Below are positions 2,687-20,140 of a stretch of DNA of 36,119 nt, piece by piece (the stretch's first letter is position 1; the number at the start of each line of letters is the position of its first letter). The DNA comes from Actinomycetota bacterium. GTDB taxonomy: Bacteria > Actinomycetota > Actinomycetes > Nanopelagicales > Nanopelagicaceae. Made by a program: the position numbers and the translations under genes. The stretch covers positions 1 through 36,119 of the forward strand of contig WLQG01000009.1 in assembly GCA_009698445.1 (NCBI GenBank). Direction: 5' to 3'. Under the pieces are notes generated by a model. The model did not search any database. It had not been told where the DNA came from and saw only the letters and a program-made list of their open reading frames with translations.

Positions 2687-3250
2687 TCAACTCTGCAACT
2701 TGCCTTCTTTAACGCGCACCGCGAGAGAAGGAGCTGCTTTGTCCTTTTCTGAGAGTGAAACCTCAAAAAGATCAACACCCCAATCGATCCCCAACTCCGA
2801 ATCCAAAGGATTAATCTCAAACTCTTCAGAAGGTGAATAGGGCGAACTTAATAAGTAAGCAATCGTCGACGAAGGCGCTATTGACGCAAACCCATGTCCT
2901 AAACCTGCACCGATCAAGACCGCCTTCCCATCAAGCGCCTCTAAATCAACCAACACTGATTTTCCAAAGGTCGGCGAACTCGGACGGATATCAACAATCA
3001 CGTCGCGTATCGATCCACTTACGCAAGTAATCCACTTTGCCTGCCCTTGTGGTGCGATGCTGTAATGAATTCCCCGAATTACACCGCGCTGGCTTTGTGA
3101 AATGTTCGCTTGTTGAATCGCGAAATCAATCCCTGTCGCAGCAAGCACGTCTTCGGCCTTGAACCACTCACGAAAAAATCCGCGCTCGTCACTCCAGATA
3201 GGAGACTCAGCGAGCCACGCGCCTTCAATTCCAAGTGGAGTTAATTTCAT
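2687..3250 (-). CDS. rfbC: dTDP-4-dehydrorhamnose 3,5-epimerase
   Basis: ERGFFREWF, QANISQSQRGVIRGIHYSIAPQGQAKWITCVSGSIRDVIVDIRPSSPTFG are RmlC motifs; next to rfbD and rfbB. Confidence 0.93.
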   Translation of the reverse strand: MKLTPLGIEGAWLAESPIWSDERGFFREWFKAEDVLAATGIDFAIQQANISQSQRGVIRGIHYSIAPQGQAKWITCVSGSIRDVIVDIRPSSPTFGKSVLVDLEALDGKAVLIGAGLGHGFASIAPSSTIAYLLSSPYSPSEEFEINPLDSELGIDWGVDLFEVSLSEKDKAAPSLAVRVKEGKLQS

Positions 3251-3254
3251 TTTT

Positions 3255-4130
3255 CTATTCTTCCGCCTTCACTGCGGAAATGATTGCAGGCATCGCTTCG
3301 GCGAGCGCGATTCGCCAATCTCTCATCGGCTTAACCGAAGTATTCGCCCATGCTGCATGACTCAAAACAGAATAAGCAGGTCGCTTAGCTGGCCGCGGGT
3401 ATTCACTCGAAGAAACTGGAACAACTCGCGACACTTTGGCACCAGCGAATTTGAAAATCTCTTGTGCAAACTCAAACCAAGTCGCTTGCCCAGAATTTGT
3501 CCCGTGGTAAATGCCAGCGGGCGATTCAGATAAACCTAATTCCACTAATTGTCGGGCAAGATCCATAGCCGAAGTTGGCTGTCCAACTTGATCACTAACC
3601 ACCCTGACTTCACTGTTACCCTTGATTGCAAGCTTTGTCATCGTCTTTGCAAAGTTCTTTCCCCAAGGACTATAAAGCCATGCAGTTCTAACAATTGATG
3701 CGTGCTCCGGATATCCGGCTGAAACCCTGTTTTCTCCTTCTGCCTTTGTTCGACCATAAGCAGATTGGGGGTTGATTTCATTATCAACTTCAAATGGGGT
3801 CTCGCTCTGTCCAGAAAAAACATAATCAGTTGAAATATGAATCAGTTTCGCGTCGATTTCTTTAGCGGCAAGTGCCACATTTTCCGCACCGTCACTATTC
3901 ACCCTAGAAGCTGATAACTCACTGCTTTCTGCCCCATCAACATCAGTCCAGGCCGCACAATTGATAATTACTTTAGGTATCAACTGTGCAATTACATCGC
4001 GAACAATTGGACCTTGAGTGACATTCAAATCTTTTGAATCCCAAGCACTAAATAGAATCCCACGCTCTCCTAGCTCTTGTGAAAGTGCGATCCCTAACTG
4101 CCCAGAACCGCCCGTGATTAACCAAGACAT
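3255..4130 (-). CDS. rfbD: dTDP-4-dehydrorhamnose reductase
   Basis: ITGGSGQLGIAL, STDYVFSG, YGRTKAEGE motifs of RmlD. Confidence 0.94.
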   Translation of the reverse strand: MSWLITGGSGQLGIALSQELGERGILFSAWDSKDLNVTQGPIVRDVIAQLIPKVIINCAAWTDVDGAESSELSASRVNSDGAENVALAAKEIDAKLIHISTDYVFSGQSETPFEVDNEINPQSAYGRTKAEGENRVSAGYPEHASIVRTAWLYSPWGKNFAKTMTKLAIKGNSEVRVVSDQVGQPTSAMDLARQLVELGLSESPAGIYHGTNSGQATWFEFAQEIFKFAGAKVSRVVPVSSSEYPRPAKRPAYSVLSHAAWANTSVKPMRDWRIALAEAMPAIISAVKAEE

Positions 4131-4137
4131 TTACTAA

Positions 4138-5106
4138 TTAACGATTCTTAAGTGGTTTCCACCACGCTTCATTGTCTCGATACCACTGGATTGTGTCTTT
4201 CAATCCATCTTCAAACTTAACTTGAGGTTCATACCCAAGCCCGTCATTAATCTTTGTCCAATCAACGCTGTAACGAAGGTCATGACCTTTTCTATCCTGA
4301 ACATATTCGATTGAGGATTCATCAGCACCCATTGCATAAAGAATAAGTCCGGTAATTTCGAGGTTAGTTAACTCTCGTCCGCCACCAATGTTGTATACCT
4401 CGCCAGACCGACCATTCATCAAAACTTGATGTATTCCGCGGCAATGATCATCTACGTGCAGCCAATCTCGTACATTTTTCCCAGTTCCATAAACCGGAAC
4501 TTTCTTCTTCTCTAACAAGTTTGTAATAAATAAAGGAATCAATTTCTCTGGGAAATGGTGAGTTCCGTAGTTATTGCTGCAGCGAGTAATTACAACATCC
4601 ATTCCATGGGTTCTGTTATATGACCGAGCCAAAAGTTCACCACTTGCTTTACTGGCCGAATAGGGAGAGTTGGGTAAAAGTGGATGGTTCTCGGTCCATG
4701 ACCCCGTTTCGATAGAACCGTAGACCTCATCAGTAGAAATCTGGACGAACCGAATATCTTTCTCAGATCCCTTAATCGCGTCCAGCAAAACTTGAACACC
4801 AACAATATTTGTCTGCACAAAATCTTTAGCGCCAGCTATAGATCTATCTACATGCGACTCAGCTGCAAAATTTATAACCGCGTCAAAACGTGAGACTAAT
4901 CCATTTAAAAGACCTGAATCACAGATATCACCCTGAATAAACGCATAATCGCTAGAGTTCAAATTGTTAAGGTTTGTAAGCGTTCCGGCGTAAGTCAATT
5001 TATCAAGAACCGTTACTGAGCCAATTCCTGGGAGTGATCCATCAACAACGCGCCTAACAAAATTTGAACCGATGAATCCAGCGCCGCCAGTCACTAATAA
5101 GCGCAT
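4138..5106 (-). CDS. rfbB: dTDP-glucose 4,6-dehydratase
   Basis: VTGGAGFIGSNFVR, NFAAESHVDRSI, STDEVYGS, YSASKASGE, TRCSNNYG motifs of RmlB. Confidence 0.96.
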   Translation of the reverse strand: MRLLVTGGAGFIGSNFVRRVVDGSLPGIGSVTVLDKLTYAGTLTNLNNLNSSDYAFIQGDICDSGLLNGLVSRFDAVINFAAESHVDRSIAGAKDFVQTNIVGVQVLLDAIKGSEKDIRFVQISTDEVYGSIETGSWTENHPLLPNSPYSASKASGELLARSYNRTHGMDVVITRCSNNYGTHHFPEKLIPLFITNLLEKKKVPVYGTGKNVRDWLHVDDHCRGIHQVLMNGRSGEVYNIGGGRELTNLEITGLILYAMGADESSIEYVQDRKGHDLRYSVDWTKINDGLGYEPQVKFEDGLKDTIQWYRDNEAWWKPLKNR

Positions 5107-5162
5107 AATTCACTCCCTTCAATGTTTTAGATTATGTAGACCTTACCCTCTACACTTTACAC

Positions 5163-6029
5163 ATGAAAGGAATTGTTCTCGCTGGTGGGACCGGGTCGCG
5201 ACTTTGGCCTATTACTAAGGGTGTCAGCAAGCAGTTACTACCGGTTTATGACAAACCCCTTATTCACTATCCGCTTGGTACATTATTTTTGGCTGGTATT
5301 CGTGAGATTCTAATAATTACGACCCCAGACGATCTGTCTTCGTTTCAAAGACTTCTGGGTGATGGCTCAATATACGGGGCTAAATTCACTTACGCGGTGC
5401 AAGCAAAACCCAATGGGTTGGCCGAAGCATTTATTATTGGCGAAAACTTTATTGCTCGTGATAATGTGGTGCTAATCCTTGGTGACAATATTTTTCACGG
5501 TGTCGGCCTGGGAAAGCAATTAAAAGAAATTGACTCGAGTAGTGGGGCGACAATTTTTGCTTACAAGGTTTCCGACCCAGAGCGATATGGCGTAGTCGAA
5601 TTCTCTAATACTGGGAATGTAATTTCAATTGAGGAGAAACCTGCGAAACCCAAGTCTAACTACGCAGTCCCTGGACTCTATTTTTATGACTCACAGGTGG
5701 TTGACATTGCAAAGTCAGTGATCCCAAGTAAACGAGGTGAACTGGAGATAACATCAGTTAATGAAGCTTATTTAACTCAAGGAAAACTCACAACAAGAAT
5801 CCTAGAGCGTGGAACAACTTGGCTAGATACGGGCACAATTCAAACGCTCCATACGGCTTCCTCTTATGTGCAAATCATTGAAGAACGCCAGGGTAATAAA
5901 ATCTCATGCTTGGAGGAGATTGCTTGGAGGAATAAGTGGCTCAGCAGTTCAGACTTACTTGAAATCGCCGAGTCTTATACCAATAATCCTTACGGACAAT
6001 ACTTAAAATCACTGATCCTGGAGATTTAA
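5163..6029 (+). CDS. rfbA: Glucose-1-phosphate thymidylyltransferase
   Basis: [38 protein letters not shown] and ILGDNIFHG are RmlA motifs. Confidence 0.96.
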
Positions 6030-6083
6030 GTGAAAGAATCACGAGGCATTTTTATGAAAACAATGATTCATGGAATTACTTGA

Positions 6084-7454
6084 TTACCAACATGTCGCAT
6101 GTTTGATAATGTCTCTTGCGAAATTTAAGCTCGATGAAGTAATATCCATGTCAAGTCCAAAAAATTCTTGGAAAGATTCAGAACTAATCGATTGATGTGG
6201 GTTATCAATGAAATTAATAACATCTGCCCAATTCTGTGATCGATGAACTGGACCATTATTATTTATATCGAGTAGACTCCCATGTTTAAAACCTTCAAAT
6301 GCTCGCAAACTCAAAGATCCTGGCGGTGCAATAACAGGTAATCCTGTAACATGACTCTCGACAGCAGCACTCGTTGCTAAAGCAATTGCACATCTGGAGT
6401 TAACTAATTGATCTAAATATGAACGCCTGTTAGAGGGAGACTCAATAAACTCGCAAATAATTTGATTTCGAGCAAGATTCTGGATGAAGTTACTCCGCCG
6501 ACCATTTGCCCAATCAAAAAAACCCTGACTCCCCCGGGGGGTTTGAGGATGAAGTCGAATTAAGAGTGATTTAATTAAATCTACTCGGCCGATACGAAGA
6601 CAATAAGTAGTAAACTCCTCAATTAATTCCCATTCATCTTCTATATTACCCACTATAAATTTAGAAGAAGTCAACCAGATAAATTGATTAAGTCGATTGT
6701 CTCTCTTTAGTGATTCCGTGCTTTGCATCAAATATACAAAAGGATAAGGACCGGTGACCAATATTTTCTGGGGTTGAATTCCGTGATAAGTGATAGCCTC
6801 TTCTTTTTGTCCTTGGCCCCAAACTAGATAATAATTAAAATCATCACGTAATTTACCCTTAATTGTCAAATTGTCCCACGATGAGATTATTCCAAAACTT
6901 GAAATACTAGCTAACTTTGCAGCTTTGCCAATAATTTCAGCTCTAACCTCATTAACCACAGGTGAAACTAAGACTGCACCATAACTCCTAGCAGAAAAAA
7001 ACTCACTCAATTGTTTTTCTTTTTCAAGATGGTATTTTGAATGTTGTCTATGCGTAGAAAAAACAATAAGCCGCTTGAACATATCCTTTAATTTTGAGAA
7101 AACGCTTGTTGTTTGAGCTCTTCCTCTAGGAATTATATATTTCGACAATTCTGGATGTGAGAAAAATTCTAAATTTTCACTTTTGCGTGAATGTTTGCGG
7201 CCAATGATTACTTCAAGGCGCACAAAATCAGAAGCCCACTTGGCGCTAAGAATCACTATATTAAGATTAGGCTTCATGTCAACTAATTCAATTAAATACT
7301 CCCTGAATGTTTGAGAAAACAAGCGATCATTGTGATAGTCAACGCCAAAAAAAACTATATCAACCTCAACACCATCTATGTTAAGAAGTTCAATAATTCC
7401 AAATTCTGCTAATCGAAAGTATCCACTACTACGCAAGAAAAAGGCAATTTTCAT
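6084..7454 (-). CDS. GT-B-like surface-carbohydrate biosynthesis protein, possibly glycosyl-/glycerophospho-transferase-like
   Basis: 456-aa ORF; SSWDNLTIKGKLRDDFNYYLVWGQGQKEEAITYHGIQPQKILVTG resembles CDP-glycerol transferase/capsule-type proteins; sits in the polysaccharide locus; overlaps the next gene by 4 bp. Confidence 0.5.
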   Translation of the reverse strand: MKIAFFLRSSGYFRLAEFGIIELLNIDGVEVDIVFFGVDYHNDRLFSQTFREYLIELVDMKPNLNIVILSAKWASDFVRLEVIIGRKHSRKSENLEFFSHPELSKYIIPRGRAQTTSVFSKLKDMFKRLIVFSTHRQHSKYHLEKEKQLSEFFSARSYGAVLVSPVVNEVRAEIIGKAAKLASISSFGIISSWDNLTIKGKLRDDFNYYLVWGQGQKEEAITYHGIQPQKILVTGPYPFVYLMQSTESLKRDNRLNQFIWLTSSKFIVGNIEDEWELIEEFTTYCLRIGRVDLIKSLLIRLHPQTPRGSQGFFDWANGRRSNFIQNLARNQIICEFIESPSNRRSYLDQLVNSRCAIALATSAAVESHVTGLPVIAPPGSLSLRAFEGFKHGSLLDINNNGPVHRSQNWADVINFIDNPHQSISSESFQEFFGLDMDITSSSLNFARDIIKHATCW

Positions 7455-8266
7455 CTTCGGTTATGGCCCTCCTCCATATGCATGGAATCTTCAAAAATTA
7501 CTAATTGTTGCCGAGATGCGCGTATTAACTCGATTGATTTCATGACAGCAAAGCTGCCTGAAATACTCACAATGTATAAGACAGGGTTTATTGAACCAAG
7601 AAATAAATTTACGGGGAGATATATAAGACCAAGGATTGGGATGCCGGAGAGTATTGAGCTTATAGAACTGACTTCGCTGTGGGATAGTAAAGTCCAAATC
7701 AAAATCAAAAACAAGTTTAGGGTTGCTGAAGCATACCTCTCTCCATAGAGAAATTCATTATTTTTTGTTCGAACAACATAATAGATTGGAAGGATTATTC
7801 TTAGAGCCAAGTAAATATTCAAGGTATTTAGTAGAATTAGGGTCAGCCCTGTTTTTATCAAAATTGAATCTTGAAAAAGAATTGCCGTGCCAATGAACAT
7901 AATTGGAAAGAAATATTCCGTGACAGTGGAAAAAAAATATGCGTATTCGATTGTCTTCTTTGAAATACTTTTCCCTATGTTCAGTCTTTTATTTAACCTA
8001 GGTAGTTTCCACATATTTCTAAGATTGACCGAAAAAACATTACCCGAAATTACAATGCTAATAAGAATTAAGCACGATTCGGGATTTGAAAATTGTTGTT
8101 GAATTACGTAATACGGTAGGACTCTTATAGTTGGTTTTAAAACAAACCATAGCCACGGTAACCTTGAACCACGGTAAGGCAACTTCCAAAAACCAACAAT
8201 TAGGTTGAAGAATGACAAAGGTGAACTCACAGCTCTTGGAGCGATCTTCTTTTTTCGCATAACCAC
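7451..8266 (-). CDS. Polytopic membrane protein, possibly ABC-2-type polysaccharide-export permease-like
   Basis: Multiple hydrophobic segments; N-terminal LPYRGSRLPWLWFVLKPTIRVLPYYVI vaguely resembles the ABC-2 permease entry segment; no ATPase gene in the window. Confidence 0.4.
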   Translation of the reverse strand: MVMRKKKIAPRAVSSPLSFFNLIVGFWKLPYRGSRLPWLWFVLKPTIRVLPYYVIQQQFSNPESCLILISIVISGNVFSVNLRNMWKLPRLNKRLNIGKSISKKTIEYAYFFSTVTEYFFPIMFIGTAILFQDSILIKTGLTLILLNTLNIYLALRIILPIYYVVRTKNNEFLYGERYASATLNLFLILIWTLLSHSEVSSISSILSGIPILGLIYLPVNLFLGSINPVLYIVSISGSFAVMKSIELIRASRQQLVIFEDSMHMEEGHNRR

Positions 8267-8369
8267 TACTCTAGTATAATTGTATTTATTGAATTATTCT
8301 TACTTTTTGGCTCATAAAGGTTCATCTGCTCATTGATAGATTTGCGTTAATCAATTCATTAAAGCGCTA

Positions 8370-9653
8370 TCAAGACTTACGGCGAAGCTCGAAACTGTTT
8401 AATTCACTACGGTTTTGTATAACGTTAAATTTTATTTCTTTATCAGGAATCCCCCCCCTCCGCCGAAGTCTCAAAAACCTCCTGGTTAATTTCCTAATAC
8501 GCCGCTTCAAACCCCTCCGCCGAAGTCTCAAAAACCTCCTGGTTAATTCCCTAATACGCCGCTTCAAAAATTTGCAGATTTTACGAATCAAACTTCTTAG
8601 TTTCCGGATTGGGGAAAATAATTTTCTAGTTTGAATATTGATCAATAAAAATGGTGACATTACCTTTACTCTTCGACCGAATTTTTCCTCAAAAATCAAA
8701 AATATAATGTGTGAAAAACGTGGAAACCTTAACAGCATTTTACTTGGAAGAAGTTTACTTGCCATTTCAGAGCCGAAGAGATTTTGAATAGTCTTTCCTT
8801 TATCCGGCGAGTTGAACTGGACCCGGTGCCATGTAACTTCCTCAGAAGTAACTAAGGAACCTTCAATAAGTTTGATCAAGAGATATAGCTGGTCAGGGCC
8901 GATGCATGGGAAGTAAAAAGAGTCGTTACATGCTTGTTGACTCTTTCTTTCTATACCATAAATTGTGCTCCCAGCATTCAACTGATGTGAGGCCCATATT
9001 CTCTTCCAAATTTCAATGCTGCTCAATCTTGGATGAAGTTCTTTCCCATCACGTCTGCACTGGCAGTGAAAATCCCCGTCCACATTGAAGAAGTCAAGTT
9101 CAATCCTAAGACTATGTTCGCAATTATATCTTCCAAATTCATACCGGTAATATCTTGGCACAAACCATACCGCCTCAGAATGATCATTGAGTATTTTTAT
9201 GCCTTGATTTCCAAAGTTTGGTTCCCACAAATCATGATCACTGGCTAATGCAATAAAACTGGATTGAGGGAAAAGAGAGAGGGCAAGTTTTCTGGCGACA
9301 TTAGTTGCAATTAATTGACCAGAATTTTCCTTGGCTTCAAATGCAATTAGATTCTTATTAGAAAGTGCAAACTCTCCTAAAATTTCGCAAGTCCTATCAC
9401 TCGAGCCATCATCGAATACGACGATTTGGTGGTTCACTCCAGCCTGTCTCAAGAGTGATAACAATGAGTTCGCAATAGTTAATTCAGAGTTGTAACTTGG
9501 AAGGTAAAACACTAGATCAACATCCTTGGAATGAAAATCCGCCAAATTGATTTGAGTTTTTGATAAAAGACTATCCACGAGGGAATCTACATCCCGCTCC
9601 ATTGCGATTTTCTTACTAAGAATCCCTGAACTAGGGAATTCCAAAAACCTCAT
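8370..9653 (-). CDS. Family 2 (GT-A) glycosyltransferase with Arg/Lys-rich repeated C-terminal tail
   Basis: VFYLPSYNSELTIANSLLSLLRQAGVNHQIVVFDDGSSDRTCEIL is a GT2 N-terminus; C-terminus has repeated RRFLRLRRRG. Confidence 0.85.
   Translation of the reverse strand: MRFLEFPSSGILSKKIAMERDVDSLVDSLLSKTQINLADFHSKDVDLVFYLPSYNSELTIANSLLSLLRQAGVNHQIVVFDDGSSDRTCEILGEFALSNKNLIAFEAKENSGQLIATNVARKLALSLFPQSSFIALASDHDLWEPNFGNQGIKILNDHSEAVWFVPRYYRYEFGRYNCEHSLRIELDFFNVDGDFHCQCRRDGKELHPRLSSIEIWKRIWASHQLNAGSTIYGIERKSQQACNDSFYFPCIGPDQLYLLIKLIEGSLVTSEEVTWHRVQFNSPDKGKTIQNLFGSEMASKLLPSKMLLRFPRFSHIIFLIFEEKFGRRVKVMSPFLLINIQTRKLFSPIRKLRSLIRKICKFLKRRIRELTRRFLRLRRRGLKRRIRKLTRRFLRLRRRGGIPDKEIKFNVIQNRSELNSFELRRKS
8455..8568. 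repeat. Direct tandem duplication, 2 x 57 bp (8455-8511 and 8512-8568)
   Basis: The two copies differ at one visible position (AATTTCCT vs AATTCCCT); 57 bp = 19 codons, so in frame within the GT2 gene. Confidence 0.95.
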
Positions 9654-9722
9654 GGGGCAACTTTATATGTTGGCATGTAAATATCATCCAAACTGGCGCT
9701 ATTGTGACCTATACTTATTTCC

Positions 9723-10760
9723 ATGAAAGACGCAATTTTCACAAGCTTACCAACCTCTGACCCTATTTATAGTTCATATGCGAACGCTTCAAAAGAACTG
9801 TTGAAATTAGTCGCCGCGTCCCGAGCTGTTGGTAGAAGCCAATATTGGACACGTGAGATAGAAAGTCTTGAATACCTCTTCGACGCATCTCCATCCATTT
9901 TGAAGAGACTTAGAGAGCATTGCCATTGGGTCACGGGCATATCGAGTTATCAATACGCGAATCATCACTTTGATACCCCTCCACATTTAGCGTTGATTGA
10001 GCGAATTGGTGAGTTGTCAAATAGAAAGCCAAACCTAGAAATCTATCCGGAGAGAGAAACTTATGGTGGGTTTGGGTTTCCATTTCAAGGCAATATTTAT
10101 AATGCAGATACGTTGAAGTATCATGAGGTTATTATTGGTCTCACCGAGTCTCTGTTCTTTTTACTTAAGAAAAATTCTTACACAATAGTCGAGATAGGCT
10201 CTGGATATGGTGGTCTGGCGGATACATTATTAAGACACTCACCAAATACAAAACTAATTCTAGTAGATTTTCCGGAAGTTCTACTATTAGCGTGGACATT
10301 TATTGGAGCGTGGCATCCAGAGAAAAGGATAGTTCTGTTTGATGAAAAATCCTTAGTGCCGAATTCCGATTTTGATATTCTATTAGTTCCTAATAATTTA
10401 TTAGGCGCTTTTCAAAGTAGTGGAACAGAAATTGACCTAATGCTAAACACAGTATCATTTCAAGAGATGACAACTTCACAAGTCCAAGGTTATATTGATT
10501 TTGCAAATGATTTGGGAATTCAATTTATCTATAGTCTAAATCGAGACAAATCCAAGTATAATAAGGAGTTAACTTCTGTATCTGAAATAATTAGGGAACG
10601 CTACTCTACCGAAGAATTGTGTATTCTTGGCACTGAGTACACTGCGGCGCTAAAAAAAGTTAAGAATAAGCCAGTAAATAAGATCAAACAAAGTATTATC
10701 GAAACCGTGAATCAAACTTCTCCCTATAAACACATTTTTGGTAAATTAAGGACACCATAG
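9723..10760 (+). CDS. Putative sugar O-methyltransferase
   Basis: IVEIGSGYGGLADTLLRHSPNTKLILVDFPEVLLLAWTFI is a SAM-binding motif of the PUG-type sugar methyltransferase style; MLNTVSFQEMT downstream. Confidence 0.7.
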   Translation: MKDAIFTSLPTSDPIYSSYANASKELLKLVAASRAVGRSQYWTREIESLEYLFDASPSILKRLREHCHWVTGISSYQYANHHFDTPPHLALIERIGELSNRKPNLEIYPERETYGGFGFPFQGNIYNADTLKYHEVIIGLTESLFFLLKKNSYTIVEIGSGYGGLADTLLRHSPNTKLILVDFPEVLLLAWTFIGAWHPEKRIVLFDEKSLVPNSDFDILLVPNNLLGAFQSSGTEIDLMLNTVSFQEMTTSQVQGYIDFANDLGIQFIYSLNRDKSKYNKELTSVSEIIRERYSTEELCILGTEYTAALKKVKNKPVNKIKQSIIETVNQTSPYKHIFGKLRTP

Positions 10761-10882
10761 ATTTCCGTGTTCACGCGAAACTAATTTCAAACTAATCAGA
10801 GCTGCCTGCTTAATTTGTATTATGTCCGTTAGACTTTCTGAATGTCTTTGAGTGAGTTTGCTTTGAAACTTGAGGTTCAAAA

Positions 10883-11968
10883 TTGATAAATATAGTTTAC
10901 TTGGGAAAAAGGGGTGGTGGGGCACTTCTAGCTAAAGATTTATTGCTATTCGGGCAAGAATCGAATTTAGTTAATTTGGGAATGCTTAGTAGTGAAAATG
11001 AGCTAAATGGATACTTTCAGGGTAACAATAAGATTACATTCACTTCAGTAAGCCATGAACTTAGAACTTTATGGAAACTCCCAAGTAATCTGATTAAACA
11101 ATGCTACGTTTCTTTCAAATGGGCAAGCACTACAAGAGATGAAATAGTTCTTTTTGTAATGCCAAGCCCATTTGATCTAGTGACCATGCTAATTATAAGA
11201 ATGTTCAATCGGAAAATAACTTTTATCTGCCATGAATATAAATCGCATGACGGAGAAATTTGGCCTACTTCACGGGCGATTAGGCGTAGAATTAAGTTAT
11301 CGGAATTGGTTATAACTTTGAATAAGAGTGATGCCGATAAGATTTCAAAACTTATTTTTGAGAAATCTCTTATAGTTCTTTCCCATCCAGTGCTCGATTT
11401 ACAAAGAAGTATTCCTGTGATTGAAACTAAAGGAACAGAGATTCAACATCCGATTTTTCTATTTGTTGGGAGGATAAAGAAGTACAAAGGAATAGAGAGA
11501 CTTTTAGAGGCTTGGAGTAGAACAGATAAAGGCTTCTTAGTTATCGCTGGGGAAGGGAGAATCGAAGGGACAATTCCTCCGCGTGCGGTCGTGATAAATC
11601 GTTGGTTGAGCGAAGGCGAGATCGGGTATTTAATGGATCTGTCTGATGCCATAATTTTTCCGTACACCTCTGCGAGTCAATCTGGATTGATTCCACTGGC
11701 AATTAGTAAAGAGTTGACAATTTTTGTCTCTGATCTGGAGGGGTTAAAGGCGCAACTTTTAAACTATTCGGATAGAACAATTTGGATAGACCCTATTGGA
11801 TCTGAAACTATTCTGGGGGAACTCAAGTCATATGCAGACCAATTCATTCCTAGAATAAAAAGCGGAGAAATTGCCTCATCTGGCCCGTCTATGATTGCTT
11901 TCTTGGAAGATATTGAGGAGACTTGGAGCACCCTACAGCGGGGTAGAGATAGTTATGGGTGCACATGA
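10883..11968 (+). CDS. Family 4 glycosyltransferase (TTG start)
   Basis: FLFVGRIKKYKGIERLLEAWSR, VIAGEG, DLSDAIIFPYTSASQSGLIPLAI are GT4/GT-B C-terminal motifs. Confidence 0.8.
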   Translation: MINIVYLGKRGGGALLAKDLLLFGQESNLVNLGMLSSENELNGYFQGNNKITFTSVSHELRTLWKLPSNLIKQCYVSFKWASTTRDEIVLFVMPSPFDLVTMLIIRMFNRKITFICHEYKSHDGEIWPTSRAIRRRIKLSELVITLNKSDADKISKLIFEKSLIVLSHPVLDLQRSIPVIETKGTEIQHPIFLFVGRIKKYKGIERLLEAWSRTDKGFLVIAGEGRIEGTIPPRAVVINRWLSEGEIGYLMDLSDAIIFPYTSASQSGLIPLAISKELTIFVSDLEGLKAQLLNYSDRTIWIDPIGSETILGELKSYADQFIPRIKSGEIASSGPSMIAFLEDIEETWSTLQRGRDSYGCT

Positions 11969-13011
11969 GGGCTATAAATTTTGGTGGAGTTGACATAAGC
12001 GATGGTGGTGATCCTTTTGTAATCGCCGAGCTGGGACATAATCATCAAGGAAGCCTTGAAACTTGCCTGCAGATGATTCGTGCTGCTGCCTACTCGGGAG
12101 CCACTGCAGTTAAACTTCAAAAGCGAAATAACCGAGAACTATTCACGGTAGAAGCTTTTGATGCGCCTTACAATAGCGAAAATGCTTATGGTCCTACTTA
12201 TGGAACTCACCGTGAAGCACTTGAATTTGGTCAGACTGAGTACAGAGCGTGCATAGAAGAAGCCAATAGAAACAATATTTTGTTTTTTGCCACCGCCTTC
12301 GATTTCTCAAGTGCTGATTTTCTTGCGGGGTTAGAAGTACCTGGCTTTAAAATGGCTAGTGGCGATTTGAAATCACTGCCTCTCCTCAAATATGTGGCAA
12401 AATTTGGTAAGCCTATGATTATTAGTACGGGCGGGGCAAACATAGAAGATGTGGACGCTGCCATTAAAACTATTCAGGCTGAAGGAGCGCCTCTTGCTGT
12501 ATTGCAATGTACAGCGGCCTACCCACCTCGATATGAGGAATTAAATCTGAATGTTATAACTACATTCAGAAATAGATATCCTGACGTAGTGGTTGGGTAC
12601 TCTGGGCACGACAGTGGAATTGCTATGTCTTTAGCGGCCTACGTCTTAGGTGCCAGAGTAATCGAAAAACACTTCACATTAAATCGTGCCATGAAAGGCA
12701 CAGACCATGCTTTTTCGTTAGAACCAGACGGAATGAGAAAGTTGGTTCGAGACTTAAGTCGAGCAAGGATCGCTTTGGGCGATGGGGTTAAGGCAACTTA
12801 TCAATGCGAAAAAGAACCACTTAAAAAAATGGGCAAAAAAATAGTCGCTTCACGAGACATTGAAGCAGGCGCTGTAATTATTGAAGCGGACTTAGCTTAC
12901 AAGTCGCCTGGCGATGGATTATCACCAGCGCTTTCAGAATCAATCTTAGGTAAAAAAGCCACACGCAAAATTTCATCTGGTGAGTCACTTAAAATCGAAG
13001 ATGCCTCATAA
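11959..13011 (+). CDS. neuB: NeuB-family (sialic-acid-synthase-like) synthase with C-terminal SAF domain
   Basis: FVIAELGHNHQGSLETCLQMIRAAAYSGATAVKLQKR, GYSGHDSGIAMSLAAYVLGARVIEKHFTLNRAMKGTDHAFSLEP, and the SAF-like C-terminus. Confidence 0.88.
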   Translation: MHMRAINFGGVDISDGGDPFVIAELGHNHQGSLETCLQMIRAAAYSGATAVKLQKRNNRELFTVEAFDAPYNSENAYGPTYGTHREALEFGQTEYRACIEEANRNNILFFATAFDFSSADFLAGLEVPGFKMASGDLKSLPLLKYVAKFGKPMIISTGGANIEDVDAAIKTIQAEGAPLAVLQCTAAYPPRYEELNLNVITTFRNRYPDVVVGYSGHDSGIAMSLAAYVLGARVIEKHFTLNRAMKGTDHAFSLEPDGMRKLVRDLSRARIALGDGVKATYQCEKEPLKKMGKKIVASRDIEAGAVIIEADLAYKSPGDGLSPALSESILGKKATRKISSGESLKIEDAS

Positions 13012-13792
13012 AAGCATTGAGCCGCTAGCCAATAGAACATATTTAGTTGTTGGCGCGGCAGGCAACCTGGGGCCTATTTGGTGCTCAAAAATTCTTGAGG
13101 ATGGCGGAAAAGTAGTCGCGATTGGATTAAATTCAAGAAGTGATCCAGAGCTTCTGAAATTAAAAGAAAAGGTGGGAGAAAACTTGGTTTTGGTTGACCA
13201 AGACATTTCCCTACCAATTAATTCTCAACTCGAGACAATACTTAATGAAACTAAAATCTCAGGTGTAGTACTGAATGCTGGGATTGATTCGACACCAGGG
13301 GCTGGTTTCTCAGATATCACTAGATTTGACTTTGATTTTTGGGTCAAAGTGTTGAGCATTAATGTTGCTGCAGTTGTATCTACTCTTAATAAAGTAATCC
13401 CACGGTTGACTAACGACGCATCCGTTGTATTCATTGGCTCTATGTACGCCCTAGTTTCACCTACGCCCAGTCTGTATAGTCACTTCAATTCAGGGGCTGG
13501 ATCTATCAAGAATCCCGCTTATGGCGCTTCGAAGGCGGCTTTAATTTCCATATGCAACCAATATGCGACCCACTTTGGGACGCAGGGAATCAGATTTAAT
13601 CTACTTACACTCGGTGGAATCGATGGCCAGCAAGACATTGAATTTAAACGCAAATTTATAGAAAAAGTGCCATTATCAAGAATGGGGAATTCTTCTGAAC
13701 TAGGTGCAGCTCTGACGTTCTTACTTTCCGAACAATCAAGTTACATGACTGGCCATAATTTAGTAATCGATGGAGGATTTACAAAATGGTAA
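13001..13792 (+). CDS. Short-chain dehydrogenase/reductase
   Basis: LVVGAAGNLGPIWCSKIL, VLNAGID, YGASKAALISICNQYA, NLVIDGGF. ATG at 13001 preferred over the in-frame GTG at 12980. Confidence 0.88.
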   Translation: MPHKSIEPLANRTYLVVGAAGNLGPIWCSKILEDGGKVVAIGLNSRSDPELLKLKEKVGENLVLVDQDISLPINSQLETILNETKISGVVLNAGIDSTPGAGFSDITRFDFDFWVKVLSINVAAVVSTLNKVIPRLTNDASVVFIGSMYALVSPTPSLYSHFNSGAGSIKNPAYGASKAALISICNQYATHFGTQGIRFNLLTLGGIDGQQDIEFKRKFIEKVPLSRMGNSSELGAALTFLLSEQSSYMTGHNLVIDGGFTKW

Positions 13793-15228
13793 ACCTTATT
13801 GATCAAGCACAAACCTATTGGCACATTGGAATTGAAGAAAATTTTGATTCACCTTCGGTGCAAAGGATTTCGCCATTAAGCGAAGAGGTTTTGGCATCAT
13901 TCAAGATTGGCCGTGAGTTTGAAGTTTCCAGGGCAGTACTGAATGCAAGGAATTCATATAGAGATTGGTCGAGTTTAACATTTGTGAAACGTGGCCAAAT
14001 TCTTCGCAACGCATGCAAACTACTCGAGGAGCGAAGCGAAGGGTTTGCCGCGATTGTGCGCTTAGAAACTGGAAAATCAAACGAACTTGCCAAAGGTGAA
14101 TTAGAAGCGGCTGTAGAGTTTGGATACATGATGGCAGCGCACGGGCGCTTACCGATTGGAAAGGTGTTACCAAGCGGGATTGTTGGCAAAAATGTACAAG
14201 TAGCCCGAAACCCCCTCGGTGTGTGCGCCTTGATAGTTTCCTTCAATACTCCATTACCTAATTATGCGTGGAAGGTTTTTCCAGCTCTCTTATCTGGCAA
14301 TACGGCTATTTTAAAACCATCTCCATATACCCCATTCAGCGCGTGGCTTTTCGGTAAGACTTTGGTAGACGCTGGTGTACCTGAAGGAGTATTGCAAGTC
14401 CTTCAAGGAGACGGTGTCACCGGAAATCTATTGGTTGAATCTGACATTGATCTTATTAGTTTCACTGGCTCTAATGGGGCGGGGGCCGAAATTGCGACTA
14501 AGGCGAGTGGGCGGATTGTGAAAACGATTCTAGAGCTTGGCGGATCTAATCCATTTATTGTCTTTGAAGATGCAAAAATTGATAATGCAATTAATTTCGT
14601 GATTCAATCAAGTTTTAGCAATTCTGGACAACGTTGTGCCGCAGGAAGCAGAATACTTTTGCACAACTCTATCCAGGAAATTTTCATTGAAAAACTTGTA
14701 AATGCAATGAAAACTTATAAGTTTGGTACTTCTGAAGATTGTTTCATGGGCCCAGTGATAAGCGCTGATTCAGCAAAAAGATTGAAAGATTTTGAAAATG
14801 AATGTAAACAAGCAGGGGCTTCTATCAAGTCACTTGGGCAGGAATCTGGAACATCTCATGCAGTTGTTCAACCTAAGCTTATTGTGGGCTTGGATTCAGG
14901 TCTTGAGCTATCCCAGCAGGAAATATTTGGTCCCATAGCACGGGTATTCACTTTTGAGACCGAAGATGAAGCTGTGGCATTAGCTAATTCAACTAGATTT
15001 GGGCTGACGGCGGCAGTTTGGACCGAAAACCATAACTTGGCAGTCAGAGTTGCAGGTCGCGTATCAGCCGGATTAGTCAATATAAATGGCCCAACACATA
15101 GCGCTGAACCAAATATGCCTTTTGGGGGTTTTGGTGCCTCTGGAAATGGGACGAGAGAGGCTGGAATAGAGTCATTGAATTATTACTCTGATCAAAAAAT
15201 TGTTGCCACTTTCAATACAATTACTTAA
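13786..15228 (+). CDS. Aldehyde dehydrogenase family protein
   Basis: ILELGGSNPFIVFEDA and NSGQRCAAGSRIL (catalytic Cys), QQEIFGPIARV, MPFGGFGASGNG. Confidence 0.92.
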   Translation: MVNLIDQAQTYWHIGIEENFDSPSVQRISPLSEEVLASFKIGREFEVSRAVLNARNSYRDWSSLTFVKRGQILRNACKLLEERSEGFAAIVRLETGKSNELAKGELEAAVEFGYMMAAHGRLPIGKVLPSGIVGKNVQVARNPLGVCALIVSFNTPLPNYAWKVFPALLSGNTAILKPSPYTPFSAWLFGKTLVDAGVPEGVLQVLQGDGVTGNLLVESDIDLISFTGSNGAGAEIATKASGRIVKTILELGGSNPFIVFEDAKIDNAINFVIQSSFSNSGQRCAAGSRILLHNSIQEIFIEKLVNAMKTYKFGTSEDCFMGPVISADSAKRLKDFENECKQAGASIKSLGQESGTSHAVVQPKLIVGLDSGLELSQQEIFGPIARVFTFETEDEAVALANSTRFGLTAAVWTENHNLAVRVAGRVSAGLVNINGPTHSAEPNMPFGGFGASGNGTREAGIESLNYYSDQKIVATFNTIT

Positions 15229-15962
15229 TGATTAGTGCGGTCGCCCTAATCCCCGCTCGAGGGGGTAGTAAAAGAGTATTGAAGAAAAATACTCGCTTAT
15301 TAGCAGGCGCACCACTAATAACTTACACAATTAATACTGCTAAGTTGAGTGGTATTTTCGATCAGATAATTGTGTCAACTGATGACGAGGCTACTGCAGA
15401 AATAGCAATTAAGTATGGTGCCACCGTCCCAGAACTTAGACCAAGTAAATTCGCAACAGACTCCTCACCCGATATTGAGTGGGTTTCCTATGCTGCTGAA
15501 AACTGGCTATCCAATAGTGAGGTCAATTTAGTAATTTTGCGGCCGACAAGTCCATTAAGAAAACCTCAAACCATAAAGAATGCACATGAAATATTCTGCC
15601 AAAATGCGTGGGCAGACTCATTACGTGCCATGCAGCCTGTTGCCGAACACCCTGGAAAAATGTGGCGCATTGGTGAAGGAGAAGAGGCAACACCATTTAT
15701 AGACCAATTACAGAGACCTGTACCCACGCATAGCTCTCCCACGAATACCCTCGAAGAGGTCTGGGTACAAAATGCAAGCTTGGAGATTGTTAAATCTTCA
15801 ACGGTCACCGGCAAAAAAACTCTTGCCGGTGACCGTGTCCTAAAGTATGAAATGCCCGGACTTGAGGGATACGACATAAATTCGGAGAAAGATTGGGCTT
15901 ACTTAGAATTTTTGATTAAATCAAATCCAACACTCCTATCTGCAGCAGACCTGAGGAATTGA
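15228..15962 (+). CDS. neuA: Acylneuraminate cytidylyltransferase-like (CMP-ulosonic acid synthetase)
   Basis: ALIPARGGSKRVLKKNTRLLAGAPLITYTI, STDDEATAEIA, LRPTSPLRKPQTI. Confidence 0.9.
   Translation: MISAVALIPARGGSKRVLKKNTRLLAGAPLITYTINTAKLSGIFDQIIVSTDDEATAEIAIKYGATVPELRPSKFATDSSPDIEWVSYAAENWLSNSEVNLVILRPTSPLRKPQTIKNAHEIFCQNAWADSLRAMQPVAEHPGKMWRIGEGEEATPFIDQLQRPVPTHSSPTNTLEEVWVQNASLEIVKSSTVTGKKTLAGDRVLKYEMPGLEGYDINSEKDWAYLEFLIKSNPTLLSAADLRN
15801..15836. repeat. Perfect 14-bp inverted repeat with 8-nt loop inside neuA
   Basis: ACGGTCACCGGCAA (15801-15814), AAAAACTC, TTGCCGGTGACCGT (15823-15836); arms are exact reverse complements. Confidence 0.97.
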
Positions 15963-17881
15963 CAATGAAAATTGATTACGACGTAAAAGAACTTGAATCT
16001 GGGCTGGAGTTAAAGTACTGGTCGCAATCTAGATTTTTCAAAGCAATTGAGGATGAAGTTCCGTTAGATGTCTTAGCAAATGCATGCCGACTTAATATTC
16101 TTTCGATGATTAAGGCAGCTGGAAGTGGTCATATAGGAACAAGTTTTAGTTCTGTAGAAATACTCATTGCTGTTAGACAATACTTGTCAGCAACTAATAA
16201 CTTGAGAAAATCTAGCCAACAAAAAGGGGTTTTTTTCAGTTCAAAGGGGCATGATGCGCCGGCAATCTATGCCGTAATGCATCTACTTGGTGAAATCTCT
16301 GACGATCAACTATTTACTTTAAGAAGGCTCGAAGGACTACCTGGGCATCCCGAAATTGAAACTCCTGGAATTCCTACAAATACTGGTTCGCTTGGAATGG
16401 GGATTTCGAAAGCAAAGGGATTTGTGCATGCAAATCGAATGCTTGGCCTAGATCAGAAAGTAGTAGTGCTTCTGGGTGATGGCGAGCTTCAAGAAGGACA
16501 AATTTGGGAGTCCCTACCTACCGCAGCTCGGGACAAAATGTCTGAACTTATAGTTATCGTCGATGGAAATAAAATTCAGTCCGACACTTGGGTTGAAGAG
16601 ATATCGCCTCCAGGAAATCTAAAGATGCGGGTTGAGGGTAGTGGTTGGAACTTTATTTCATGTGATGGTCATGACATTTTGGCAATTCTTGAAAGCCTGA
16701 TCAGATCTGGTCAAGATGCAAAGCCAACATTTATCTATGCCTCGACAATAAAGGGTTGTGGTGTTGGATTTATGACTGAGCTCTCGGCAACCGGGAAATT
16801 TTATAAATTTCACTCAGGATCTCTGCCTGATGATCTTTATGAAGACGCCTGTGAGGAACTTCAAGTTCGGATAGGGCAGAATATTCATTGCGCGCTAGAT
16901 TTGAAAATTCGGCCTCGCATAGAATTCGAATTAAATGGAAAGCTAAGAACTGAGCTAGATTACAGTTCACCTAAGGAGCGACCAGTTTCATTTATATCAA
17001 AATGGGCTGACTTCTTATGTAAGGCGATGTCTAGCGATGAACGAGTGGTAATACTAGACGCCGATTTGTCATACGACACCGGTACGTACTTGGCACGTGA
17101 AATTTACCCTTCTAGATACATTCAGGCTGGCATTGCCGAGCAAGACATGGTTTCTATGGCTGGCACTCTTGCTCTCAAAGGCAAAATTCCATTTGTTCAT
17201 AGTTTTGCAACTTTCTTGACCATGAGACCCACGGAGCAAATTTTTAATAATGCGACTGAAAAAACTAGCGTGGTGTACGTTGGTTTCTTAGCCGGTTTAC
17301 TTCCAAGTCCTCCAGGGTTCTCGCATCAAGCTGTCACTGATGTGGGGATAATGGCTTCAATCCCCGGCATGTTACTTATTGAGCCTGCTTGTGAATTCGA
17401 AATGGAAAAGGCTTATGCCGAGGCTCTAAACCACAAAGGCCCAACTTATATAAGAATGGTAAGTCTCGGATCAATCCCTACTGCGGTTGGAAATGACTCG
17501 TTGGAGCCAGGAGATATGACTGCGCGAGCCGAAGGTACTGAAATTGCAATAGTCTGTAGCGGCCCACTTCTTGCTGAAGAAGCAGTCAAAGCTGCAATGC
17601 TTCTTGGCGAGAGAGTCTGTGCAGTTTTTACTTACCCATTTCTTAATTCACCGCCAACTCAAAGAACTCTTGCCTCATTAATAAAATTTAGGAAAGTTGT
17701 AATTTTAGAAAATTACAATTCTGGTTTAGGGATTCTTAAGCAAATTAGTAGTGCTCTGGAGCAAGAAGTCGAGATAATTTCTGTTGATGTACCTGGAATT
17801 CCGCGAAATGGTTGGAATGACGAGGTCCTAAAATTTCATGAATTGAATGCAGAAAGTATTGCAGAGAAAATAAAAAAGTGA
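15959..17881 (+). CDS. Single-chain transketolase-like ThDP enzyme (640 aa)
   Basis: GSGHIGTSFSSVEIL, GLPGHPEIETPG, ThDP motif GDGELQEGQIWE...VDGNKIQ, Pyr-domain AEQDMVSMAGTLAL and FATFLTMRPTEQIFNNA. Confidence 0.88.
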   Translation: MTMKIDYDVKELESGLELKYWSQSRFFKAIEDEVPLDVLANACRLNILSMIKAAGSGHIGTSFSSVEILIAVRQYLSATNNLRKSSQQKGVFFSSKGHDAPAIYAVMHLLGEISDDQLFTLRRLEGLPGHPEIETPGIPTNTGSLGMGISKAKGFVHANRMLGLDQKVVVLLGDGELQEGQIWESLPTAARDKMSELIVIVDGNKIQSDTWVEEISPPGNLKMRVEGSGWNFISCDGHDILAILESLIRSGQDAKPTFIYASTIKGCGVGFMTELSATGKFYKFHSGSLPDDLYEDACEELQVRIGQNIHCALDLKIRPRIEFELNGKLRTELDYSSPKERPVSFISKWADFLCKAMSSDERVVILDADLSYDTGTYLAREIYPSRYIQAGIAEQDMVSMAGTLALKGKIPFVHSFATFLTMRPTEQIFNNATEKTSVVYVGFLAGLLPSPPGFSHQAVTDVGIMASIPGMLLIEPACEFEMEKAYAEALNHKGPTYIRMVSLGSIPTAVGNDSLEPGDMTARAEGTEIAIVCSGPLLAEEAVKAAMLLGERVCAVFTYPFLNSPPTQRTLASLIKFRKVVILENYNSGLGILKQISSALEQEVEIISVDVPGIPRNGWNDEVLKFHELNAESIAEKIKK

Positions 17882-18573
17882 TGAAAAAATATTGCCTTCT
17901 GTGGGATATCGATGGAACATTACTCGAAACACACGGTGCTGGCGTACTCCCACTCGAAAATGCAATTGAACGAGAGTTTGGTGTAAGTGTAAAATTAGAG
18001 CGGGGAGAATACAGCGGCTATACTGATTTTGAAATCATTTCTGCGCTGACCATGACAAGTCTTGATGATAGTTCTTATCTACTAAAGTATGAATCTGCAC
18101 TAACAAGCTATGCCACCGCACTCGAAATCGCACTTTCCAAATCCAGAGCAACTGCACTTGGAAATATTCGAGAGGTCTTAATGGGTCTAAAGTCTCTCGG
18201 TAAGTGGGAGTCATACATCGGCACCGGGAATTATGAGGGTGCTGCAACTCATAAGCTCAAAAGCGCCGGGTTAATTGAATTTTTCCCTCAAAATCACTTA
18301 TTCGGTGCAACAAGTTCGAGAATGAAGAGGCCTGAGATTATTCGCTTTGCGCGCACTGCACTTGCAAATGATTTTGAGCCAATTGTGATTGGGGATGCAC
18401 CTGCCGACATACATGCAGCAAAATTGAATAATTTGAAGGTCATAGCAACCCCCACTGGTCACCACTCATACGAAGAATTAAATAGCTTAGTTCCTGGAAT
18501 GGTCTTAAGCACAAGTTGGTCACTTCAAGACTTACTTGAGAAACTGACTATGGTGCGATCTAACGATGATTAA
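17878..18573 (+). CDS. HAD-superfamily hydrolase (phosphatase-like)
   Basis: LLWDIDGTLLETHGAG (DxDGT) and IVIGDAPADIHAAKLNNLKVIATPTG. Confidence 0.88.
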   Translation: MMKKYCLLWDIDGTLLETHGAGVLPLENAIEREFGVSVKLERGEYSGYTDFEIISALTMTSLDDSSYLLKYESALTSYATALEIALSKSRATALGNIREVLMGLKSLGKWESYIGTGNYEGAATHKLKSAGLIEFFPQNHLFGATSSRMKRPEIIRFARTALANDFEPIVIGDAPADIHAAKLNNLKVIATPTGHHSYEELNSLVPGMVLSTSWSLQDLLEKLTMVRSNDD

Positions 18574-20140
18574 AAAATGTTTGATCGCTTTTGCGAAAGA
18601 AATAGCAAAATACCCTCTTGCGCGGCACCTTCGTAAAGAAGTAGAAAGATACAAATGGTGGAAGGAATTTAGAAATTCAAATTCGAAAGAGCACTTAATA
18701 AACGTCCCCCTTGAACCTAGGATTCTAATTGTCACTTCAGTTGGTGAAAACTTGAATGCACTTGCTCTTGATGTAGTTTTAGCTAAAGCTTTGGAATCAC
18801 GAAATGCCAAGGTTTTTATTCTTATGTGTGATGGGGTTCTTGATGCCTGTATGAACTGCGAAATTCAAAAATTTCAATCGCTTTCTGAATTCCAAGAGGA
18901 AGGTAGCGCAAGTCTCTGTAAAGGATGCATCAGAACAGGAAAGATATTTACAGAAAGTGCAAAAATTGAAGTTCTCTATTTAAGCCGTTATGTAGATAAT
19001 TCTAAAGATGAGGTAAATATCCAGGATATTGAAAGTGCCAATGCAGGAACTTTTCGTTTCCTTGCAATCGGCAGTAAGGCAAATGCTGAATTTGAAGCGG
19101 TGCTACCAAAATTCGTTAAAGGGGCGAATAAGGCACGTAATGCAATCGAAACCTGCATCGCCCAGGAGAAAATCGACATTGTTGTTGCCCACCATGGGAT
19201 ATATGTCCCCCAAGGATCGGCAGTAAGTGCTGCACACAATTTAGGTAAAAGAGTAGTTACTTGGTCGCAATCTTATCGAAGAGGGACCTATCTATTTTCA
19301 CATGATGACACACCCCATAAAATGCAAATTGAAGAAAAATATGATTCTAAAACACTAAATGACAGTGAAAAAGATAAAGTTTTAACATACCTAAAGTCGC
19401 GGGATGCAGGTACAAATGATTGGATCCGATTTGGTATTGTAGATAACAGCACAACTGAATTACCTTTAAGTATCAAACAGGTATCAACCGCGCTTTTACT
19501 CACTAATGTGAATTGGGATGCACAAGTCCACTTTGGAGCTAGTATTTTTCTGAATATGGAAGAGTGGATGCTCGAAACAATTGATTGGTTTCAATCGCGC
19601 CCACGTTTACAACTGATTGTTCGCATTCACCCAGCGGAAATCACCGGTACGGTACCAACACGGGACCCTATGGCAGCGGCAATAAGAAGAAGATTCCCAA
19701 ATTTAGCTTCAAACATAATCATTATTCCTCCTAATTCAAATGTTTCAACTTATTCGCTTTTTCCAAAAGCGGACCTGGGCCTAATCTTCGGAACTAAAAC
19801 GGGGGTAGAGCTCACTGCATCAGGAATTCCAACAATTGTTGCAGGCGAGGCTTGGATTAAGAATAAAGGGCTGACCTTGGATCCTAAATCAAAACTAGAA
19901 TATTTCGATCTCTTATCTCATTTTGAAGCTGGGGAAATCTTCGAAGGTCCTGATATTGATGAGGCTTTAGCCTATGCCTATCACTACTTTTTTAGGAGAA
20001 TGATTCCTGTTAGTTCGATTAAGCCTATTCCCTTTTTTCCATATGCAAGACCAATTTATAATCCGAATTGGGAGAAAACCGACCCTGGATTAGTCAATAT
20101 TATTGATGGAATTATTTTTGGCCGCGAATTTGAATTCTAG
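18566..20140 (+). CDS. Capsule/surface-carbohydrate biosynthesis-like protein with two-part Cys motif
   Basis: 524-aa ORF overlapping the HAD gene; CDGVLDACMNCEIQ...SLCKGCIRTG; C-terminal LQLIVRIHPAE and GIPTIVAG consistent with a GT-B-like fold. Confidence 0.55.
   Translation: MIKKCLIAFAKEIAKYPLARHLRKEVERYKWWKEFRNSNSKEHLINVPLEPRILIVTSVGENLNALALDVVLAKALESRNAKVFILMCDGVLDACMNCEIQKFQSLSEFQEEGSASLCKGCIRTGKIFTESAKIEVLYLSRYVDNSKDEVNIQDIESANAGTFRFLAIGSKANAEFEAVLPKFVKGANKARNAIETCIAQEKIDIVVAHHGIYVPQGSAVSAAHNLGKRVVTWSQSYRRGTYLFSHDDTPHKMQIEEKYDSKTLNDSEKDKVLTYLKSRDAGTNDWIRFGIVDNSTTELPLSIKQVSTALLLTNVNWDAQVHFGASIFLNMEEWMLETIDWFQSRPRLQLIVRIHPAEITGTVPTRDPMAAAIRRRFPNLASNIIIIPPNSNVSTYSLFPKADLGLIFGTKTGVELTASGIPTIVAGEAWIKNKGLTLDPKSKLEYFDLLSHFEAGEIFEGPDIDEALAYAYHYFFRRMIPVSSIKPIPFFPYARPIYNPNWEKTDPGLVNIIDGIIFGREFEF

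Follow-up and report, generated by a model that had tools for sequence, protein, structure and literature searches.

Two described systems come closest to the gene set analyzed here. In the Kdn-9-phosphate route of B. thetaiotaomicron and Prymnesium parvum, a NeuB-type Kdn-9-phosphate synthase, a KdsC-like phosphatase and a CMP-Kdn synthetase lead from mannose 6-phosphate to CMP-Kdn (PMC6200933). In the second, proposed for bacteria and grape, a dehydrogenase forms 5-keto-gluconate, which a transketolase (TK) and a semialdehyde dehydrogenase convert to tartrate (PMC12016104, PMC7970118). An eight-gene operon at positions 10883-20140 of contig WLQG01000009.1 (assembly GCA_009698445.1; Nanopelagicaceae, Actinomycetota), analyzed in a window comprising positions 1-36,119, looks like the first of these systems joined to the second. 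With the Kdn-9-phosphate route it shares a NeuB-family enzyme, a HAD phosphatase, a CMP-ulosonate synthetase and the lack of NeuC, but it adds a short-chain dehydrogenase/reductase (SDR), a TK and an aldehyde dehydrogenase (ALDH), and no mannose-6-phosphate isomerase is seen in its host genome. With the keto-gluconate chemistry it would share three roles, namely oxidation of the penultimate carbon, excision of a C2 unit and oxidation of the aldehyde; there, however, a housekeeping TK acts on a C6 acid in a proposed or engineered reaction, whereas the TK of the operon belongs to a dedicated subfamily that is linked to NeuB and a cytidylyltransferase. We propose that this TK shortens the carbon chain of a NeuB product.

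Three further systems are related more loosely. The N-acetylneuraminate, legionaminate and pseudaminate pathways have the NeuB fold, the SAF domain and NeuA/PseF-type activation in common with the operon, which differs in that no NeuC/LegG-type or Pse precursor genes were found and in that its NeuB scores below the model cut-offs and lacks Arg314. In Kdo8N biosynthesis of Shewanella (KdnA/KdnB), an alcohol dehydrogenase makes an ulosonate aldehyde that is handled by an aminotransferase, with no chain shortening; in the pathway proposed here a second enzyme would likewise act on a terminal ulosonate aldehyde, but that aldehyde would come from TK. The predicted product is a C7 ulosaric acid, the same class as Dha (3-deoxy-D-lyxo-heptulosaric acid) of rhamnogalacturonan II, although its configuration may differ. 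The biosynthetic enzymes and the nucleotide form of Dha are unknown (PMC12168206).

The genes of the operon are as follows.

10883-11968, + strand: GT4-type glycosyltransferase, first gene of the operon (PF00534, 6.3e-6, borderline, just below the cut-off)
11959-13011, + strand: NeuB-family synthase with SAF domain (PF03102, 8.6e-76; SAF)
12980-13792, + strand: SDR (PF13561, 1.2e-29)
13786-15228, + strand: ALDH (PF00171, 2.8e-130)
15228-15962, + strand: NeuA/PseF-like CMP-ulosonate cytidylyltransferase (PF02348, CTP_transf_3, 5.7e-18)
15959-17881, + strand: single-chain TK of a special subfamily (Transketolase_N, 2.3e-30; pyr, 1.2e-24)
17878-18573, + strand: HAD phosphatase (PF13419, HAD_2, 1.8e-10)
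18566-20140, + strand: Capsule_synth-type protein of 524 aa (similar to proteins after TK in loci L010, L012 and L024)

At the listed start codons, neighbouring open reading frames (ORFs) overlap by 1-32 nt, in agreement with the original prediction of an operon running from a GT4 gene to a capsule-type gene with every junction overlapping; Pfam models recognize six of the products, and some overlaps shrink or vanish when later start codons are chosen.

This gene set recurs beyond chance, and we consider it very likely that it represents a conserved pathway to a CMP-ulosonate, with a dedicated part for TK. When 85,462 species genomes were searched with the TK alignment, at least 20 subfamily loci came up (L006-L025, E < 1e-100), separated by a gap from housekeeping-type TKs, which start at 2e-71 and weaker. 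Within 9 kb of the TK, NeuB is present at 16 of the 20 listed subfamily loci and at none of 60 control loci with other TKs (Fisher p 1.8e-13), and NeuB, ALDH and NeuA are present together at 12/20 compared to 0/60 (Fisher 2e-9), p-values that are indicative only because the loci share ancestry. Not one of the three genes was found at any of the 60 control loci. As the contigs of L006 and L022 end near the TK, the neighbourhood counts are lower bounds.

NeuB, ALDH, NeuA and TK occur together at L007-L012, L014-L017, L023 and L024, and also at L094/L104, found via NeuB alone. The recurring order is NeuB-(KdsC-like HAD)-SDR-ALDH-NeuA-TK, with the HAD gene in some loci only, and it is found in an alphaproteobacterium (Ciceribacter, L007), Gammaproteobacteria (L014, L016), Acidobacteriota (L009, L010, L012), Chloroflexota (L024) and Actinomycetota (L008, L023). 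NeuA follows TK in a deltaproteobacterium (L011), and the set is without SDR in Anaerolineae of the Chloroflexota (L015, L017). At L010 and L012 the HAD gene lies at the equivalent position after TK together with a capsule-type gene, matching the window, and L012 has a methyltransferase gene between SDR and ALDH. Several relatives carry a KdsC-like HAD instead of the window-type enzyme. A NeuB-profile search of 298 Actinomycetota, independent of TK, recovered three genomes only, this one included, each with a score above 520 bits, compared to 172-251 bits for ordinary NeuBs in relatives. Of the two further genomes, the first encodes KdsC, SDR, ALDH, NeuA and TK within a single region and the second has NeuB-SDR-TK within an antibiotic-type cluster. 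The neighbourhood check put forward in the original prediction thus came out in its favor, with TK, ALDH, SDR and NeuA conserved beside NeuB.

The second check, placement of NeuB, sets it apart from the N-acetylneuraminate and pseudaminate reference synthases. Against the N-acetylneuraminate synthase model (TIGR03569), the window NeuB scores 296.6 bits and its relatives 275-290 (equivalog cut-off 399.65); against the PseI model it scores 248.8 bits (cut-off 340.25), compared to 437-455 for control PseI-type NeuBs. In a maximum-likelihood tree it lies in a supported clade (98/94) that holds only NeuBs of the recurring module, with Neisseria NeuB and PseI-type enzymes outside and the more divergent NeuB of L007 just outside. 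The metal and PEP ligands (His215, His236, Lys53, Lys129, Ser132, Ser154, Ser213) are kept in 17/17 aligned NeuBs. The position of N. meningitidis Arg314, in the SAF domain, is Ser in the window NeuB and in 14/17 aligned NeuBs, and the Phe288 position is Lys in the window NeuB. Arg314 positions the N-acetyl group of ManNAc, and its Ala mutant is inactive (PMC6795526). The two replacements make an N-acetyl hexose unlikely as the substrate.

The host genome (1.34 Mb, 67 contigs, 84.7% complete) yielded no Epimerase_2 protein, that is, no NeuC/LegG-type hydrolysing 2-epimerase, and no match to PseB above the cut-off (24-40 bits compared to 407.75), which supports the original reading of a CMP-ulosonate-type pathway without NeuC or Leg/Pse precursor genes. 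The best NCBIfam model for the NeuA-like protein is PseF, at 128.8 bits, below the cut-off of 205.7. We rejected the Neu5Ac, Pse and NeuC-dependent Leg pathways on the cut-offs, the loss of Arg314 and the lack of precursor genes in the 85%-complete genome; the operon is a variant of CMP-ulosonate biosynthesis outside the Neu5Ac and Pse pathways, whose defining features, as far as tested, it lacks. In the sister clade (L109-L111), a KdsC-like phosphatase and a cytidylyltransferase are fused to NeuB or encoded next to it, with no TK. One 701-aa frame at 9445-11550 of L109 combines cytidylyltransferase, KdsC-like phosphatase and NeuB and, from these domains, looks like a one-chain CMP-ulosonate pathway. 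By analogy, the sister-clade gene set would suit a route through phosphorylated intermediates, as for CMP-Kdn.

In E. coli TK, Ser385, Arg358, His461 and Arg520 are the substrate-phosphate ligands. The ThDP and catalytic residues of the subfamily (His26, His66, His100, Asp155, Glu160, Asn185, His261, Glu411, Phe434, His473) are kept in 22/22 members, among them His100, which faces the C1-OH of the donor. The His461 position has Gly, Cys or Leu and no His in any of the 22 members, the Arg520 position has Ser or Ile and no Arg (0/22), and the Ser385 position is replaced by Asp in an ungapped alignment to human TK and by Ala or Gly in a MAFFT alignment. These residues suggest non-phosphorylated substrates, since loss of the phosphate ligands makes ordinary sugar phosphates unlikely. 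Engineered TktA R358I/H461S/R520Q has higher activity on 5-keto-D-gluconate and yields tartaric semialdehyde (PMC12016104). Together, the ligand loss and this precedent led us to propose a chain-shortening scheme.

Sequence models score the window TK at 317 bits as a TK and at 130 bits as a DXS. An AlphaFold monomer (pLDDT 76.6) has a fold of the TK/DXS kind; its superposition gives a TM of ~0.7 with DXS and of 0.43 with human TK, a preference that probably reflects an uncertain domain arrangement in the monomer model. A DXS-like enzyme using pyruvate was rejected, as the sequence models favor TK and His100 is kept.

According to the scheme, the aldose that NeuB joins to PEP would most likely be a hexose 6-phosphate, and the condensation would give a C9 ulosonate phosphate, from which the HAD enzyme, or a KdsC-like HAD in relatives, would strip the phosphate. 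The SDR would oxidize the penultimate hydroxyl (C8) to a ketone, so that the chain would end in a hydroxyacetyl group, the motif carried by transketolase donors; TK would remove C8-C9 as a glycolyl unit. ALDH would turn the remaining C7 aldehyde into a carboxylate, and the result would be a 3-deoxy-hept-2-ulosaric acid of the Dha type. Activation with CTP by the NeuA/PseF-like enzyme would yield CMP-3-deoxy-heptulosarate, and the capsule-type protein and the GT4 would use this CMP-sugar or partner sugars for a surface polysaccharide. We give the full scheme an even chance of being correct. By analogy with keto-gluconate/tartrate chemistry, SDR, TK and ALDH would be matching kinds of enzyme for such a shortening, and both oxidoreductases appear intact: Ser154, Tyr181 and Lys185 of the SDR are kept in 15/15 homologues, and Cys284 and Glu250 of the ALDH in 13/13. 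By our own reasoning from Fischer projections, the keto end of an 8-keto C9 ulosonate derived from either mannose or glucose matches the usual TK donors in its D-threo arrangement.

Several observations weigh against the scheme. Two Anaerolineae loci, L015 and L017, have NeuB, ALDH, NeuA and TK but no SDR, and a HAD was not recognized at L008, L009, L015 and L017. Asp469, which contributes to the stereopreference of E. coli TK, is found in 0/22 subfamily members, so the stereochemical argument is weak, and the Arg358 column is poorly aligned, with Ile in the window TK in the alignment to human TK. Starting from mannose, the scheme predicts the L-arabino configuration, which is not that of plant Dha (D-lyxo). 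No mannose-6-phosphate isomerase, type I or bifunctional, was found in the 85%-complete host genome, so a supply of mannose 6-phosphate is not assured; the gene is possibly missing from the assembly through incompleteness, and three PGM/PMM-family proteins are present.

In some relatives another enzyme stands in the place of ALDH. A member of the Bacteroidales (L021, 8130-14471) and a Methylomagnum plasmid (L106, 1059-7504) have the order cytidylyltransferase-TK-class III aminotransferase-SDR, accompanied by genes for NeuB and a KdsC-like HAD. At both loci the cytidylyltransferase is SpsF-type and NeuB is ~300 aa, apparently without a SAF domain; the TK of L106 is split and belongs to a different lineage. 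Judged from gene content, the replacement of ALDH by a class III aminotransferase would fit an aldehyde intermediate. NeuB-SDR-TK is also present in antibiotic-type clusters of Streptomyces, Actinokineospora, Micromonospora rosaria and G321 (L003, L013, L025, L095). ALDH and NeuA were not found in these four clusters, which contain aminotransferases of class III or IV and so again fit an aldehyde intermediate. An RmlD-like reductase is encoded in L003, L013 and L095. The L003 cluster (NZ_CP108509.1, 810000-832000; cluster ~5400-18000) also includes an RraA-like protein, a HAD and, as read by eye, apparent hydroxyphenylglycine genes. The product of these clusters may hold an ulosonate-derived amino acid. 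The broader proposal has a little less than an even chance in our estimate: a widespread CMP-sugar pathway in which a dedicated TK excises C2 from a NeuB nonulosonate, ALDH then giving a heptulosaric acid of the Dha type or an aminotransferase a terminal amino-ulosonate, with NeuB-SDR-TK sets recruited to antibiotic-type clusters.

The original prediction placed TK ahead of NeuB: a ketose trimmed by C2 would provide an unusual aldose for condensation with PEP, with SDR and ALDH tailoring the product later. TK and NeuB are indeed nearly always close together, and transketolase followed by PEP condensation has a precedent in secondary metabolism, the imino-erythrose-4-phosphate/aminoDAHP route of rifamycin. 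This part of the prediction is nevertheless unlikely to be right, given the lost phosphate ligands of TK and the sister-clade NeuBs found without a TK. Moreover, the exchange between ALDH and aminotransferase would be left with no obvious source of the aldehyde, because SDRs rarely make aldehydes. The recurrent combination of SDR, TK and either ALDH or an aminotransferase is better explained by chain shortening after NeuB.

TK reactions are reversible and the glycolyl-donor residues such as His100 are kept, so TK could instead lengthen the sugar, adding a glycolyl unit to an ulosonate or precursor aldehyde to give a longer or branched ulosonic acid whose new ketone the SDR reduces. We find this improbable: nothing in the set stands out as the source of the acceptor aldehyde, for which ALDH would be a competitor, and the ALDH/aminotransferase exchange fits an aldehyde as product better. 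Equally improbable is an operon for CMP-Kdn or a plain nonulosonic acid, with SDR, ALDH and TK serving another sugar at a shared locus; NeuB, a phosphatase and NeuA are enough for CMP-Kdn and sister-clade loci hold just these, but in different phyla NeuB and NeuA are found together with SDR, ALDH and TK, in an order that hardly varies, and SDR and TK are also present in both further clade members recovered via NeuB alone among the 298 Actinomycetota.

Among 150 genomes of its order, a close relative of the operon TK is found in this genome only, suggesting horizontal acquisition. A separate housekeeping-type TK (731-aa frame) is encoded elsewhere in the host genome, and we therefore rejected a housekeeping role for the operon TK. 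Subfamily TKs also occur alone, with no NeuB nearby, in BMS3Abin03 bacteria (L018, 2632-4602; L019, 5242-7248).

The 524-aa protein itself has no Pfam match but is 35-39% identical to the proteins downstream of TK in L010, L012 and L024, of which the L024 homologue (10927-12624) matches Capsule_synth weakly (8.7e-5). A profile search of PDB sequences gave no match, and the AlphaFold model (pLDDT 49.5) is too poor for use. We propose, from these similarities, that this Capsule_synth-type protein may be the glycosyltransferase for the CMP-sugar.

Upstream of the operon, on the same strand and separated from it by 122 bp, lies one further gene of interest.

9723-10760, + strand: NanM-type putative sugar O-methyltransferase (TIGR04371, 77.8 bits, cut-off 44)

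Its product is a possible tailoring enzyme, and the gene is a candidate member of the operon. A convergent gene starts 26 bp past the operon end. A dTDP-L-rhamnose set is encoded at 2687-6029 (rmlC, rmlD and rmlB homologues on the - strand, rmlA on the + strand), near three tRNA genes (Glu, Asp, Phe; 1549-1899). The methyltransferase and the rml homologues indicate a surface-polysaccharide locus. Two - strand ORFs at 6084-7454 (456 aa) and 7451-8266 (271 aa) have no Pfam match and adjoin a GT2; they are probably polysaccharide genes.

No description of a NeuB plus transketolase pathway was found in the open-access literature searched, consistent with the earlier statement that no defined product is known for this set. 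If the proposal is correct, the operon would represent the first genetic route to CMP-activated ulosaric acids. It would also be a case in nature of a transketolase that cuts carbon chains during sugar-nucleotide biosynthesis, and such TKs, evolved naturally for non-phosphorylated acids, would be of interest for biocatalysis. A further class of acidic sugar would be added to the surfaces of bacteria from many phyla, in which such surface components matter for recognition by phages and grazers.

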